Assembly: GCF_900177665.1 (NCBI RefSeq)
Contig: NZ_FXAW01000006.1
Span: forward strand, 62,001-126,000
Direction: 5' to 3'
Length of the DNA: 64,000 bases
DNA from: Marivirga sericea
Lineage (GTDB): Bacteria > Bacteroidota > Bacteroidia > Cytophagales > Cyclobacteriaceae
Shown: positions 58,936-64,000 of the stretch, piece after piece
Layout: the number at the start of each line of letters is the position of its first letter
How positions within the stretch are numbered: position 1 is the stretch's first letter
Made by a program: the position numbers and the translations under genes
Notes under the pieces: generated by a model
What the model was told of the DNA's origin: nothing
The model's database searches: none
Seen by the model: the letters and a program-made list of their open reading frames with translations, nothing else

Positions 58936-59544
58936 TTATTCTCTCTTCCTTAATTTTACTTGATAATTTACAGCCCCAATATTAAAATTGCGCTGGATAC
59001 AAGTTCCATTTTCATCGTATTCCCAAATCGTTTTTTCATTTTCGGAATTAACCATCATATAACGGTTTTCTTCCGGCAACTTTGCAATCTTAAAATATTG
59101 ATGAACACTTTCTGAAAAGACGGAATCTCGCTTGTGGGGCTGATCAAAATAAAGTTTAACAGTACTTTTTACTATAGGTTTTTCATACCAATTTTTACTA
59201 GTATCTATAATCGTCCGGTAATATTTTTTACCTAGTAATTGTTCGATTTTCGCTTCTTCAATCGTTTCTCCATTTCTTTTATCTACAAAATAGGCCTGTC
59301 GTAAAGTATCATTCTGATAAACGGCTTCTTGCAATTGGATCAATTGAGTGGGTCTAAATAGTTTGTATTCTAAGTCCATCACAGCTGAATAATAGACTTT
59401 ACCACTATCTAATACTTTTTTGGTCGCTAGCATATTGCCTACAGCTTTACCTTCAATCGAAACATCATACACCAATTCTTGAGAGACGCCTGAAAAGCTT
59501 AAGTTCACTAAAATGATTGTAATCAATGTTTTTAACCTGCCCAT
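58936..59544 (-). CDS. DUF6134-type secreted protein
   Basis: The 202-residue protein starts with a signal peptide (MGRLKTLITIILVNLSFSG) and reads like the DUF6134 family: ELVYDVSIEGKAVGNMLATK at the start, YYSAVMDLEYKLF, then KLYFDQPHKRDSVFSESVHQ in the middle. The function is unknown; it is probably periplasmic. Its start overlaps the end of the broken comM gene by 13 bases, so it was once co-translated with comM and may now depend on a promoter inside the fragment or in the transposon. Confidence 0.75.
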   Translation of the reverse strand: MGRLKTLITIILVNLSFSGVSQELVYDVSIEGKAVGNMLATKKVLDSGKVYYSAVMDLEYKLFRPTQLIQLQEAVYQNDTLRQAYFVDKRNGETIEEAKIEQLLGKKYYRTIIDTSKNWYEKPIVKSTVKLYFDQPHKRDSVFSESVHQYFKIAKLPEENRYMMVNSENEKTIWEYDENGTCIQRNFNIGAVNYQVKLRKRE

Positions 59545-60215
59545 TCTTCCCTATCTAAACTTCTATATTGGATGGCTTCTGCCAAATGCTCAATTTTAAT
59601 ATCTTCGCTACCTGCTAGATCTGCGATAGTACGAGATACTTTCATGATTCGGTCATAAGCTCTTGCTGAAAGTCCCAGTTTTTCCATAGCATTCTTTAAC
59701 AACGCCTTTCCTGCAGAGTTTATTACACATACCTCTTTAACCATTTGAGAGGGCATCAGAGCGTTAGAATGCACATCTTCTAATCCTTCAAAGCGCTTTT
59801 CTTGTATTTGTTTTGCTGCAATGACCCTTTTACGGATGGTATCACTACTTTCTGCCTTCCGGTCTGCTGTCATCTGATCAAAAGAAACCGGTGTGACTTC
59901 AACGTGCAGATCAATTCTATCCAAAAGAGGTCCACTTACTTTATTCAAATATCGTTTTACTGAACCTGGCGGACAAACACATTCTTTTTCAGGATGGTTG
60001 TAATATCCACACGGACAAGGATTCATGCTAGCCAATAGCATGAAGTTGGCTGGAAATTCTACAGAGACTTTTGCTCTTGAAATAGTTACTCTTCTTTCTT
60101 CCAAAGGTTGACGCATTACTTCCAAAACAGTTCTTTTAAACTCAGGAAGCTCGTCCAAAAATAATACTCCATTATTCGCTAGTGAAATTTCGCCTGGCTG
60201 CGGAATGCCGCCTCC
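59532..60215 (-). pseudogene. comM: ComM/YifB Mg-chelatase-like ATPase, 3' half, cut by a Tn7-like element
   Basis: The frame is open from the junction at 60215 to the stop at 59532. It encodes GGGIPQPGEISLANNGVLFL and DELPEF (Walker B region), the cysteine cluster NPCPCGYYNHPEKECVCPP, then the helical lid domain ending IQYRSLDREEW. These match residues from about 270 onward of YifB/ComM (about 510 residues). The N-terminal Lon-like domain and Walker A are missing, because the sequence changes abruptly to the transposon terminus upstream of the Gly-Gly-Gly codons. ComM is a branch-migration helicase used in natural transformation. The remnant is presumably non-functional. Confidence 0.92.
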
Positions 60216-60329
60216 TGTAATTTACAAAAGAAAATGCGAACTTGCAGAAGGTAAGTTCGCATTTTTACTTTACAAGCTGCAAAACTTCATAAAAGTATGT
60301 GCGAACAAATCTTATTTTAACCAAAGAAG
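60216..60329 (+). promoter_or_regulatory. Transposon terminal region with repeated GCGAAC sites
   Basis: The terminus starts TGTAATTTACAAAAG. A perfect 13-base inverted repeat follows, AAAATGCGAACTT (60231-60243) and AAGTTCGCATTTT (60253-60265), and a further direct TGTGCGAACAAAT lies at 60299-60311. TTACAA occurs at 60222 and again at 60270. Repeats of this kind at a Tn7-like end are expected TnsB binding sites. The palindrome, which is close to tnsA, could also serve as an operator or attenuator for the tns operon. Confidence 0.7.
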
Positions 60330-60986
60330 ATGCAAGTAAAAAAAGCACGTGAAGTAAAAAAAAGCCATGTTTCATTAACTGGACTTTTCTATAGTCAAAA
60401 AAATCTACGACAAATTAGCTTTGAGTCGTCCTTAGAAGCAGACTATGCTGAGCTACTAGAGTTTGATTCTGATGTAGAATCTTTTCTTGAACAGCCCACA
60501 AAACTACTGTTAAGTTCTTCAAAATATTTCCCAGATTTCTTAGTTAAATATTCCAAGAAAGCTAAAATAGAGAATGGTTTTGTTGATAAGTATGTAGAGA
60601 TAAAATATACATATGAGCTCGAAAAGAAAAAAGATTATTATGAAAACAGGTTTCAAGAAGTAAGGGAAGTTGTAAGTAGTTTGAATATGAACTTTGAGAT
60701 TGTAACCGAAAAAACTATCAGGAATAATTATCTTAATAATGTAAAGATATTAAATGGTTATAAATATCAACCAGTTGATGAGGTACTCAAAGGTATGGTT
60801 GTCGATCAAATTGAAAGATTAGGATATACAACGGCTGAGGAAGTGGTTAGAGGCATTGGTGGTGGTCTTTATGAAAGGGCCCACTCTATTTTCATAATTT
60901 GGCACCTGCTAGCAAATGATTTTCTTTATGCAGACTTAAATGAGCCAATCTCGATTGTAACTGAAATTAGTATTAATAAACCTTAA
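60330..60986 (+). CDS. tnsA: TnsA-like transposon endonuclease
   Basis: The 218-residue protein has a restriction-enzyme-like fold. QISFESSLEADYAELLEF gives the catalytic Glu (about 36), YFPDFLVKY the Asp (69) and KYVEIKYTYEL the E-x-K (90-92). These match the catalytic residues of Tn7 TnsA. With TnsB it makes a heteromeric transposase that cuts the 5' strands, so the element can move by cut-and-paste rather than by cointegrate formation. The C-terminal half (from about 130) is the TnsC-interacting region in Tn7 and is shorter here. Next gene: tnsB, seven bases later. Confidence 0.9.
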   Translation: MQVKKAREVKKSHVSLTGLFYSQKNLRQISFESSLEADYAELLEFDSDVESFLEQPTKLLLSSSKYFPDFLVKYSKKAKIENGFVDKYVEIKYTYELEKKKDYYENRFQEVREVVSSLNMNFEIVTEKTIRNNYLNNVKILNGYKYQPVDEVLKGMVVDQIERLGYTTAEEVVRGIGGGLYERAHSIFIIWHLLANDFLYADLNEPISIVTEISINKP

Positions 60987-60993
60987 ACTGCTT

Positions 60994-62838
60994 ATGGCAA
61001 GTATTAGTATTGAAGTAAATTCTTTGATATGCTTCAACAATGAAAACTATTTAGTTAAAAGAATTTCAGACTTAGATTCAATTATTGGAGAAAGAACCTC
61101 TGATTTAAAAAAAATAAGAATTCCTATAAATGAAATTAAGAGTCCGATTATCGAGGGAGATATTGATACGAGTCCTACAGCAGCATACTCTGAGGAAGAA
61201 TGGGAAATGGCTAGAAGGAGGTTTGAAATAATTGAACCATTCTTGCAACTAACAAACAGGGCGTCACAAATCAATGAATCTTCAGAAGAACACGGCATTC
61301 ACCCTTCGACAATTTATAGATGGTTAGAAAGATATGAGTCATCAGGATTAATTTCTTCCTTAGTTCCTTATCAGAAGGATGGAGGAAGGGGAAAAGGGAG
61401 AATATCAGAAAAGCTTGAACCCCTTATTCAAGATATTATTGAGAACCAGTATTTAAGAAGTCAAAGGATTAACATTAGTCAAGCTTATATTGAATTACAG
61501 CTGGCATGTAGAAATGAGAATTTAGAAGCTCCTCATATCAATACTTTCAGAAAGCGAGTAAAAGCAATTTCTCTAGAGATTAGAACTAAGAATCGCGATG
61601 GTAAGAAAAATGCTCAAGAAAAATTTGAACCAATTAGAGGTTTATATAATAAAGCTACCTATCCATTATCAATTGTTCAAATTGACCATACACTGTTAGA
61701 TATTATATTAGTTGATAATGAGACAAGACGGCCAATAGGACGACCATGGATAACTGTAGCTATAGATGTATATAGTAGAATGATAACCGGGTTTTATGTT
61801 TCTTATGATCCTCCCAGTTCAATGAGTGTTGGTTTATGTCTCTCACATTCTATTCTACCAAAAGAAAAGTATCTGCTTAATTTAGGGATTGAAGGCGAAT
61901 GGCCTTGTTGGGGCATAATGAATACTGTCCATGCAGATAATGCCAAGGAATTTAAGGGAAGAGTTTTAAAAAGAGCTTGTGAGGAGTATAAAATTAATAT
62001 TCAATGGAGACCAATAGGCACTCCACATTGGGGAGGCCATATAGAGAGGCTTATTGGGTCTCTGAATGGTGTTCTTCATACGCTACCTGGTACAACCTTT
62101 TCGAAGAAAGAATATAGAGAAAACTATAATTCTGAAGACAAAGCAACTTTATCGCTTATTGAATTAGAAAAATATCTGAGTATGTATATAGTGGATATTT
62201 ACCATAAAAAAGTTCACAGTGGGTTGAAAGTTTCTCCTATGTTTAAATATACAGAAGGGCTACTTGGAAGTGGCTCATTTGGAGGATATGGATTACCAGC
62301 AAAGGTCTCTGATGAGGATAAATTAAAGAAAGATTTTATGCCATTCTTTGAAAGAACTGTTCAAAGGTATGGAGTTAAAATTGATCAGATATATTATTAT
62401 CATGATATTTTGAGACGTTGGGTGAATTCTAACGATCCTAAAATACCTTCACAAAAAAGAAAGTTTATATTTTGTAGAGACCCGAGAGATATTTCAATTA
62501 TTTATTTTCTAGATCCTGAAACCAGGAATTATTATTCGATTCCTTGTAGAGATATCACTAGGCCATCAGTAAATATTTGGGAGTTTAGGGATGCAATTAA
62601 ACATTTGAAAGACCAAGGAGCAAAATCAATTGATGAGGATAAAATTTTTGATGCATATGAAAGACTTAACAATCTAAAAGAAGAGTCAAAGATTAAAACT
62701 AAACATAAGAAAAGAAGAACAAAAGAAGGTAGAACAAATGTCCATGAATCAATAAAGAAGATTCAAAGTGAGAATCTTGATACAATTGATGAGCTTGATA
62801 TTAAACCTTTTGACGACATAGATTATGGATCATATTAA
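60994..62838 (+). CDS. tnsB: TnsB-like DDE transposase
   Basis: The 614-residue retroviral-integrase-fold transposase has an N-terminal winged-helix/HTH region (HGIHPSTIYRWLERYESSGL, about 100-119). The DDE triad is Asp231 (SIVQIDHTLLD), Asp315 (VHADNAKEFKG) and Glu351 (HWGGHIERLIGSLNG). A Mu-type C-terminal beta-barrel follows, then a basic C-terminal tail (about 565-590) that in Tn7 binds TnsC. It recognises the transposon ends and joins the 3' strands to target DNA. It overlaps tnsC by 14 bases. Confidence 0.95.
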   Translation: MASISIEVNSLICFNNENYLVKRISDLDSIIGERTSDLKKIRIPINEIKSPIIEGDIDTSPTAAYSEEEWEMARRRFEIIEPFLQLTNRASQINESSEEHGIHPSTIYRWLERYESSGLISSLVPYQKDGGRGKGRISEKLEPLIQDIIENQYLRSQRINISQAYIELQLACRNENLEAPHINTFRKRVKAISLEIRTKNRDGKKNAQEKFEPIRGLYNKATYPLSIVQIDHTLLDIILVDNETRRPIGRPWITVAIDVYSRMITGFYVSYDPPSSMSVGLCLSHSILPKEKYLLNLGIEGEWPCWGIMNTVHADNAKEFKGRVLKRACEEYKINIQWRPIGTPHWGGHIERLIGSLNGVLHTLPGTTFSKKEYRENYNSEDKATLSLIELEKYLSMYIVDIYHKKVHSGLKVSPMFKYTEGLLGSGSFGGYGLPAKVSDEDKLKKDFMPFFERTVQRYGVKIDQIYYYHDILRRWVNSNDPKIPSQKRKFIFCRDPRDISIIYFLDPETRNYYSIPCRDITRPSVNIWEFRDAIKHLKDQGAKSIDEDKIFDAYERLNNLKEESKIKTKHKKRRTKEGRTNVHESIKKIQSENLDTIDELDIKPFDDIDYGSY

Positions 62839-63718
62839 AAGGGACCTAATACCACTACTTAATAAAAGTAAGCAAGAAAGAATAAGCTTTATTCTAAATG
62901 ATCTATGGATAGGCTATCCTAGAGCTCATGAAATACTCAATAAGCTTAATTTCTTGCTACGACATCCAAGAATAAATAGAATGCCTAGTATGTTATTGGT
63001 TGGAGAAACTAATAATGGTAAAACGGTTTTACTCAAAAAATTTATAAATGAAAATAAACCATTTCTTGATGAGGATGAAGAAAGATTAACAGCGCCAGTA
63101 CTCTATATACAAGCTCCACCAGCTCCTGATGAAAAGCGATTTTATAATTCTATATTGGATGCTACTTTTACTCCTTATAGGCTTAATGATAAACTTGATA
63201 AACGTCATCAACAAGTAATCAAAGTATTGAAGCAATTGGATGTTAAGGTTCTAATAATAGACGAAATACAACACATTTTAGGAGGAACTATAAGTAAGAG
63301 AGTCTCATTTTTGAATGTGATAAAGTATATGTCAAACGAATTGAGGATATCGATTATTGGAGCTGGGATTCATGAAGCATTTAATGCTATTAGTACAGAT
63401 CCTCAACTTATTAATAGATTTGACCAACAAGTGTTGCCAAGATGGTCATATGATTCAGATTTTTTGAGATTACTTGCAAGCTATGAAACTTTACTACCTC
63501 TTAGAAAATCATCACACTTAGTTAAAGATAGTACCTTAAATAAAAAGATTTTTAATTTGAGTGAGGGTATTATTGGAGAGGTGTCTTCTATTATAAAAAA
63601 GGCTGCAACATACGCAATAGAAAATGACATAGAATGTATAAATAATGAAGTTATTAAATTAATTAAATTTGCGCCTCCCTCGTCCAGAAGACATAATTCA
63701 GCCTATATTAACTCATAG
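62825..63718 (+). CDS. tnsC: TnsC/TniB-like AAA+ ATPase
   Basis: In this 297-residue ATPase, MLLVGETNNGKTVLLKKF is the Walker A motif (residues 60-67), VKVLIIDEIQHIL is Walker B (Asp146-Glu147), and SIIGAGIHEAFNAIS with INRFDQQVLPRW are the sensor and arginine-finger regions. It is short, like TniB, rather than the roughly 555 residues of Tn7 TnsC. It forms filaments on target DNA and links TniQ to the TnsA-TnsB transposase. It overlaps both tnsB and the probable tniQ start. Confidence 0.93.
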   Translation: MDHIKRDLIPLLNKSKQERISFILNDLWIGYPRAHEILNKLNFLLRHPRINRMPSMLLVGETNNGKTVLLKKFINENKPFLDEDEERLTAPVLYIQAPPAPDEKRFYNSILDATFTPYRLNDKLDKRHQQVIKVLKQLDVKVLIIDEIQHILGGTISKRVSFLNVIKYMSNELRISIIGAGIHEAFNAISTDPQLINRFDQQVLPRWSYDSDFLRLLASYETLLPLRKSSHLVKDSTLNKKIFNLSEGIIGEVSSIIKKAATYAIENDIECINNEVIKLIKFAPPSSRRHNSAYINS

Positions 63719-64000
63719 TGATTTCTTTGATTTATTGCCTTGCTTTACCAAACCAAAGGAAAATGAGTTGTTCACATGTTGGGTGTATCGTATGGCCCAC
63801 AGTCATGATTTAAAGGTTCAAACCTTTTTCAAAGTTCTTTTTGGCAATTACAATATATGGAATAGGGATATTGATCGACTTGTACCGGATGAGATCATTC
63901 ACTTTTTATCAAAAAGAAATAATATTGATTATCAAAAGGGCTTAGCGACCACCTTAAAATATTATGAAGGAAAATTATTCCCAAAGCTTAATTTTTACGG
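63669..64000 (+). CDS. tniQ: TniQ-family target-selection protein, N-terminal part (partial)
   Basis: The frame runs off the right edge. FDLLPCFTKPKENELFTCWV followed by YRMAHSHDLKVQTFFKVLFG and WNRDIDRLVPDEI is the TniQ N-terminal signature (L-x-SW..R.A...). No ATG lies near the frame's beginning; the first candidate is TTG at 63669, inside the tnsC gene (50-base overlap), giving RLPRPEDIIQPILTHSDFF. In Tn7-like elements this position holds a TniQ or a TnsD. If full length, it would be the factor that directs insertion into comM. Confidence 0.85.
   Translation, partial: MRLPRPEDIIQPILTHSDFFDLLPCFTKPKENELFTCWVYRMAHSHDLKVQTFFKVLFGNYNIWNRDIDRLVPDEIIHFLSKRNNIDYQKGLATTLKYYEGKLFPKLNFY

Follow-up and report, generated by a model that had tools for sequence, protein, structure and literature searches.

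A Tn7-like transposon inside comM of Marivirga sericea and the possible choice of its site by a short TniQ without TnsF

In the 64,000 nucleotides of the Marivirga sericea genome analyzed here (the window; C8:62001-126000 of a genome of 4.74 Mb in 26 contigs, referred to as G000), the comM gene was interrupted by a complete Tn7-like element of 15,599 bp (C8:122216-137814), which starts at window position 60216 and ends 11.8 kb beyond the window edge. A first-pass annotation, made from the window alone, had described a comM frame that stops at 60215 and a TGT-bounded element from 60216, and both were borne out, with the genes matched by Pfam (Table 1). When the sequence was extended past window position 64000, as that annotation had proposed, the other terminus, the 5' half of comM (from C8:137815 onward), the CCTCC duplication, and the cargo were all located: the last bases of the element, ...CTGTAAATCACA at C8:137814, were followed by CCTCC and then by the comM 5' half, and 27 of the first 36 bases matched between the left and right ends (TGT...ACA termini). 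With a single CCTCC between them, the joined flanks read as one open comM frame, 513 residues long from stop to stop. In the coding sense, the break follows ...GTC GGG GGA GG, in the Gly codons just before PGEISLANNGVLFLDE (Walker B). An uninterrupted comM, with a protein 95% identical, was found in a genome of the same genus (G367). Chance is excluded by the end repeats, by the CCTCC duplication, and by the repeated use of this site among relatives (see below), and the element really is a complete Tn7-like transposon inside comM. The claim of such an element within comM of a Bacteroidota was therefore upheld by the ends, the duplication, the restored frame, and the empty site, and neither a complete upstream comM without an element end nor a far side lacking repeat or duplication was seen. 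All four core frames (TnsA, TnsB, TnsC, and TniQ) were open, and the element may still be active. ComM is a helicase of natural transformation, and the break is expected to impair transformation in the host.

Table 1. Features of the interrupted comM locus (window positions unless marked; an L002 position is the window position minus 56000)
Feature	Position	Strand	Evidence and remarks
comM 3' part (yifB-type Mg-chelatase-like AAA ATPase), broken in the Gly-Gly-Gly codons	59532..60215	-	Pfam Mg_chelatase, Mg_chelatase_C; in-frame join to the 5' half outside the window
Left CCTCC copy, 5-bp target duplication	60211..60215	.	Right copy C8:137815-137819, outside the window
Left transposon end	60216..60329	.	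TGT terminus, terminal repeat, repeated GCGAAC motifs ahead of tnsA
tnsA, endonuclease	60330..60986 (L002 4330-4986)	+	Pfam TnsA-N PF08722 1.1e-7
tnsB, DDE transposase	60994..62838 (L002 4994-6838)	+	Pfam Mu-transpos_C, HTH
tnsC, AAA+ regulator (TniB family)	62825..63718 (L002 6825-7718)	+	Pfam TniB 3.9e-68
tniQ, 341 aa, core-only	63669..64000, continuing to C8:126694 = window 64694 (L002 7669-8694)	+	Pfam TniQ 2.6e-5
ORF605, 605-codon frame touching tniQ	L002:8691-10508	-	
Two HTH cargo genes	L002 10925-11218 and 12058-12363		

The tnsA, tnsB, tnsC, and tniQ genes formed a single operon-like run, and the Marivirga TnsB was 33-45% identical to the TnsB proteins of four relatives in the order. 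The Pfam match of TniQ was below the curated cut-off and was obtained with the truncated portion inside the window; conserved CxxC pairs were present. An AlphaFold2 model of TniQ (predicted local distance difference test, pLDDT, 87) contained only the helical-zinc finger-helical core, with the best VIA matches in TniQ of a CRISPR-associated transposon (CAST; Z 15.1) and in residues 19-240 of TnsD (Z 13.9). According to Faure 2023 (PMC10293859), Acinetobacter Tn6022 (AjTn6022) needs TnsF, with TniQ, for transposition into comM. Because elements of the Acinetobacter type rely on both TnsF and TniQ, and no match to a TnsF profile was found across the whole Marivirga element, the premise that TniQ chooses the site needed a test of its own.

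The open reading frame (ORF) that touches tniQ, ORF605, has the position and strand expected of TnsE in the Tn6022 family, and is probably TnsE-like. A profile of the ORF605 group matched ORFs near tniQ-tnsF of TnsF-bearing elements (L085, 1.8e-24; L083, 1.4e-7; L075, 2.9e-6; L070, 4.6e-6), and a profile-profile comparison between this group and the L070/L091 pair gave 97.0% over 240 columns. In an AlphaFold2 model of low confidence (pLDDT 58.6), the top three VIA matches were C-terminal domains of Tn7 TnsE: Z 8.3, 7.9, and 7.7 over 124-128 residues, with unrelated secretion chaperones next at 7.3. No Pfam TnsE match was obtained for ORF605 and no TnsE match in a PDB sequence search; a relative of ORF605 in L022 gave a sub-threshold Pfam TnsE_C match (0.062).

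Thirteen proteins between tniQ and the right end were searched with Pfam and PADLOC. Besides the two HTH genes and an IrrE/M78 gene, whose PADLOC matches include the capH, capP, and RmrA models, the cargo contained a run of Multi_ubiq, DUF6791-ThiF, and DUF6527 genes (Pfam), an adjacent same-strand ShosTA-like pair (PADLOC ShosT 1.6e-18, PRTase-like; ShosA 6.1e-72, DprA-like), and an M23 peptidase-domain protein of 934 aa. These family names point to probable phage defense. Resistance genes were absent from the 13 proteins, as were cas genes or a CRISPR system, apart from a marginal partial match (8e-4) of an 80-aa ORF to a CARF-HEPN model; among the cargo types that had been suggested (resistance, defense, or CRISPR-associated), only defense stood. 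An RNA guide was considered and rejected: exact matches of the 300-bp target to the element were at most 11 nt long in G000 and 12 nt in G249 (a Hymenobacter genome described below), which did not exceed those in 50 shuffles each. The G000 element had no Rfam family at gathering score. The Marivirga element thus contained neither the cas effector genes nor the target-matching guide by which a CAST is recognized. The G249 element carries a CBASS-type (cyclic oligonucleotide-based antiphage signaling system) set at L021:445-3641: a cyclase (6e-90), a HORMA protein (5.7e-55), and a CARF-AAA-HTH regulator (4.9e-132).

As relatives of the element, we took the best 80 of 571 TnsB matches (TnsB alignment against genome contigs), which are not a random sample, and called their sites from the tnsA-side flank, on draft genomes. 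Thirty-nine were inserted at the comM Gly codons, 3 elsewhere in comM or in reverse, and 31 outside comM, while 7 had too little flank; junction bases were motif-readable in 35 of the 39 Gly-site loci, and L071, L083, L097, and L101 were placed by tblastn alone. The comM 3' half was beside tnsA in 41 of the 42 comM loci, only L040 being reversed. Of 24 genomes with a locus in comM that were queried for the gene, 22 had both halves, whereas G310 and G312 had the 3' half only. At 1e-10, TniQ was matched in 5 of the 291 genomes of the order (Marivirga included). The proposed search of other comM genes for empty and occupied sites, run on 60 genomes of the family, revealed a whole comM in 51, an insertion-split comM in 2 (G000 and G352), and a comM cut by contig ends in 6; comM was not found in 1.

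In 13 genomes from two phyla, the matching duplication at the Gly site fell within bases 1-9 of the Gly-Gly-Gly codons: GGAGG (in the coding sense) in Marivirga; by eye, GAGGA in G292 and G315, GGAGG in G302, TGGAG in G314, GGTGG in G299 and G311, GGGGG in G296, GCGGC in G303, GGCGG in G313, and GTGGC in G309 (Acinetobacter, TnsF type); and GGCGG in G352 and GTGGT in G907. In G305, an Akkermansia metagenome-assembled genome (MAG; Verrucomicrobiota), the duplication was GATCG at the same place, where the third codon is Ser. The first-pass annotation had stated that AbaR/Tn6022 islands enter the same Gly-rich codons, which was confirmed in Acinetobacter (L091/G309), the duplication GTGGC being in the same three Gly codons. 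The distance from the junction to the PGE codon was 17 nt in 14 of 15 readable loci of the TnsF type (16 nt in L093) and 15-24 nt in the 19 readable TnsF-less loci including G000 (18 nt); L035 differed, at 5 nt. The G918 insertion was close to the Gly codons, with a 4-base overlap across two contigs.

Other arrangements were also observed in comM. In G352 (L165), an element of 41 kb occupied the same Gly codons but was turned the other way round, and the reversed L040 element was located at or beside these codons. In seven genomes, G291, G294, G297, G298, G300, G306, and G852 (L145, L142, L151, L155, L153, L152, and L182, respectively), the left end was at or beside the Gly codons and the right end (TGTC terminus) was further 5' in comM, at approximately residues 117-269, the intervening stretch being gone; such one-sided deletions make the loss of comM irreversible. 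G301 and G307 resembled them, with ends not clearly read. A related element in G019 (C12:296.9 kb, C10:19.6 kb) was near comM residue 85; its duplication, CACAG, spanned two contigs and was read by eye.

TnsF was searched for with a profile seeded on Acinetobacter and Massilia, and was present in 21 of the 80 relatives. Eighteen of the 39 Gly-site loci had TnsF and 21 had none; after leaving out L078 and L082, the contigs of which stop before the place of tnsF, 19 of the 80 relatives were TnsF-less Gly-site loci (12 Bacteroidota, 6 Pseudomonadota, and 1 Verrucomicrobiota). None of the 14 Bacteroidota comM loci among the 80 had TnsF. When the TnsF alignment was compared with 27 whole genomes, some of them drafts or MAGs, no match was obtained in the 24 with TnsF-less comM elements and a match in all three controls; for L101 and L040, the search covered the fetched locus. 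The L043 element, of which 13.8 of about 14.0 kb was read, had no TnsF match. TniQ was 322-372 aa long in the TnsF-less Bacteroidota Gly-site loci, and was of TnsD length in the proteobacterial L104 and L105 (541 and 519 aa); L055 encoded a TniQ-TnsF fusion. We found no paper on TnsF-less comM elements in the openly accessible literature, subscription papers and supplements being outside the search.

In a TnsB tree of 84 rows, 20 of the 21 TnsF-bearing loci formed part of one 26-row clade (SH-aLRT, Shimodaira-Hasegawa-like approximate likelihood ratio test, 96), the exception being L055. The Marivirga TnsB was outside this clade, on an unresolved branch, and TnsF-less Gly-site elements were spread over several further branches, one of them a nine-row clade of Bacteroidota (99). 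As for the suggested independent or shared lineage, the tree placed the element in a wider group together with the Acinetobacter elements, but outside the clade with most of the TnsF-bearing loci. Many deep forks are open, and the use of comM may be ancestral or may have arisen repeatedly. A TniQ tree was constructed from 71 of the 84 rows, with short, duplicate, or missing TniQ omitted.

Two Hymenobacter elements, L065 (H. actinosclerus) and G249, were both inserted at Cys-rich comM codons (...HPEKECVC), with duplications about five bases apart: GCACA and CGCAT, respectively. In TnsB (59%) and TnsC (64%), L065 was nearest to L043 (H. ruricola, Gly codons), whereas its TniQ shared 75% identity with the G249 protein and 46% with the L043 protein, the higher identity to G249 holding along TniQ; the TnsB and TnsC proteins of G249 and L065 were 44-46% and 49% identical, respectively. 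In 26 of the 28 pairs among eight elements, TniQ showed lower conservation than either TnsB or TnsC. A careful TniQ tree paired the two Cys-site rows (100/100), and the TnsB and TnsC trees placed L065 with L043 and G852 (supports 93/83 and 96/92, respectively). In approximately unbiased (AU) tests with 23 rows, the group L065+G249 was rejected by TnsB (p 5.35e-5) and TnsC (4.84e-5), and L065+L043 by TniQ (p 8.7e-45). Because the TniQ of L065 was nearest to that of G249, whose site it shares, and its TnsB and TnsC were nearest to those of the Gly-site L043, TniQ tracked the site.

The whole G249 element was compared with the fetched parts of the L065 element (L065, L137, and L138). Besides tniQ, the genes common to both in these stretches were tnsA, tnsB, tnsC, an HTH gene (31%), and a right-end gene (24%), none above 49% identity. 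The right-end gene family was also found in the Gly-site Hymenobacter G907, G918, and G852, and since the L065 copy was nearest to that of G852 (38%, vs 24% to G249), this gene goes with TnsB and TnsC, and not with the site; the right-end ORF of G249 was thus rejected as the true selector. It may be TnsE-like: hhalign gave 87% to the ORF605 group, and three TnsE-type profiles missed it. The comM genes of 120 Hymenobacter genomes were later surveyed as a further test. The TniQ proteins of G907, G918, and G852, inserted at or beside the Gly codons, were 52, 46, and 53% identical to that of L043 vs 42, 41, and 43% to that of G249; the TnsB of G907 was 44% identical to that of L043 vs 41% to that of G249.

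We propose that the element is a Tn7-like heteromeric transposon that homes into comM as a chromosomal attachment site. TnsA and TnsB would excise and join the element, leaving the 5-bp duplication, and TnsC would connect both with the target. The Gly-Gly-Gly codons of comM would be specified by the short TniQ, with no part played by TnsF, Cas proteins, or a guide, while the TnsE-like protein would probably serve a second, plasmid-directed pathway. The insertion breaks ComM and brings in the probable defense genes. We assign a probability of roughly 0.7 to this explanation as a whole, i.e. a comM-homing element with a site set by a short TniQ without TnsF; TniQ itself would read the DNA, perhaps together with a host protein. 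The chances are about even for the more general claim that core-only TniQ proteins (about 320-350 residues) are sequence-specific, exchangeable selectors, and that an exchange of tniQ alone moved an element from the Gly to the Cys codons of comM.

Several points weigh against this proposal. The Marivirga TniQ was only 29-38% identical to those of relatives in its order, and its role is therefore assigned by analogy. The TniQ of G144 was 36% identical, yet the G144 element was inserted elsewhere, upstream of an apparent rpsO; this element (L020:13.6-14.2 kb) was just upstream of apparent rpsO and pnp genes (named by reading), comM was whole elsewhere in the genome, and the TniQ frame had an early TGA. 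A gammaproteobacterial clade (19 TnsB rows) was not in comM where its site was judged; 18 rows of this clade plus L089 had no common upstream ORF save in the pair L033/L054, and 18 loci (17 of the clade and L089) had no nearby tRNA, the only tRNAs, in L044 and L103, being separated from tnsA by about 5 kb. A fixed site thus holds for the comM group, and is not demonstrated for the whole set of relatives. The Gly-site TniQ proteins did not form one clade, with 12 changes on the drawn tree, 4 of them forced by starred branches. Regarding the exchange in Hymenobacter, the AU groups were named only once the trees had been seen, and TnsA was undecided: the L065 TnsA was 46-48% identical to that of G249 and 42% to that of L043; the pairing in the best TnsA tree was L065 with L043, at an unstarred support of 94, and the group L065+G249 was not rejected (p 0.115). 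The middle of the L065 element is on unfetched contig ends. Among 395 genomes of the phylum and 389 of the order, the only close relative of the Cys-site TniQ besides G249 belonged to L065's own genome (G801, 74%), and the swap consequently remains a single case of two Hymenobacter elements.

The core-only TniQ also lacks the C-terminal DNA-binding extension of TnsD, and this favors an explanation in which TniQ is only an adaptor: a host DNA-binding protein or an unrecognized element protein would read comM, and differences in TniQ would decide the partner. Faure 2023 (PMC10293859), in its remarks on short-TniQ loci without a partner, suggests that selectors might be recruited in trans. On the other hand, the two Cys-site elements had no second common gene above 49% identity in the compared stretches, and a partner conserved across phyla would be demanded by the use of the same codons in Bacteroidota, Pseudomonadota, and Verrucomicrobiota. 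We regard the adaptor role as the strongest alternative to selection by TniQ, though an unlikely one. It is much less likely that a diverged TnsF, or a tyrosine-recombinase-like selector, is present and escaped recognition. Target selectors evolve fast, as noted by Faure 2023 (PMC10293859), and a TniQ-TnsF fusion exists (L055); however, the TnsF profile matched 0 of 24 genomes vs 3 of 3 controls, the near-whole L043 and whole G000 elements had no TnsF match, and no G000 cargo protein matched a recombinase family. An insertion without site selection, with comM merely a tolerant or favored victim, is very improbable: relatives use at least three comM places (the Gly codons, the Cys codons, and residue about 85) and a break at yet another position of comM had no tns genes beside it in the stretches fetched, but duplications within the first nine Gly-codon bases in 13 genomes of two phyla (plus GATCG in G305), and one orientation in 41 of 42 comM loci, with the comM 3' half beside tnsA, argue for a chosen site.

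The Marivirga element belongs, on present comparisons, to the wider Tn6022-related group, but without TnsF. Tn6022/AbaR (PMC10293859) shares TnsA, TnsB, TnsC, a short TniQ, the same three comM Gly codons, and the 5-bp duplication, together with a TnsE-like gene on the opposite strand (probably ORF605 in Marivirga). It differs in that TnsF is operonic with tniQ there, whereas profile searches detected none in the Marivirga element or genome; junctions are 16-17 nt before the PGE codon in the TnsF type and 15-24 nt in TnsF-less elements, and the Marivirga TnsB is outside the clade of TnsF-bearing elements. With Tn7 (TnsABCDE, glmS site; PMC11406308), the element has in common the heteromeric transposase, TnsC, a TniQ-family selector, a probable TnsE-type second selector, and the 5-bp duplication, but the Marivirga site is inside a coding sequence, which is broken, TniQ has no C-terminal extension of the TnsD type, and TnsE is weakly similar. 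Type I-B1 CASTs also use comM as an attachment gene, through CRISPR RNA according to a passage in PMC11406308, whereas neither cas genes nor a guide-like match was found in the Marivirga element. The Tsy elements target comM as well, but are described in the relevant part of Faure 2023 (PMC10293859) as tyrosine-recombinase elements without tns genes.

In Faure 2023 (PMC10293859), a short TniQ is taken as the sign of an extra selector, and numerous Tn7-like loci, with a TniQ too short for target selection and no known partner, are left open as to how they find their sites. In the present set, a group of short-TniQ elements without a known partner had a fixed site, comM, for which TnsF was not needed. 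L043 and L065, with G249, constitute a matched natural pair in which tniQ and the site change together, making the selector question directly testable. If a core-only TniQ does select the target, the class with a short TniQ and no partner would gain a function, and TniQ would be a small homing module swapped by evolution. Elements in several phyla habitually break comM, and this bears on the conflict between mobile elements and natural transformation proposed in PMC11472951; in Acinetobacter, the removal of AbaR restored comM and transformability (PMC7508600).

The comM gene was also broken near its NPCP codons in G323 (C33 at about 393,580 and C39; L139 and L140) and G893 (C19; L183 and L184), with no tns genes beside these breaks in the fetched stretches. 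G893 belonged to the Hymenobacter survey, in which the interrupted comM of G914 likewise showed no tns genes in the stretches fetched. At the NPCP break of Mucilaginibacter pineti, the adjoining sequence resembled, by eye and with no search made, an antisense serine recombinase. A second intact comM, not established as cargo, was located about 7 kb past tnsB in L030 (Fibrella). The element in the Akkermansia MAG carried an intact comM of its own (L068:5931-7445; 504 aa), 73-77% identical to the split host halves, which is possibly a spare copy.

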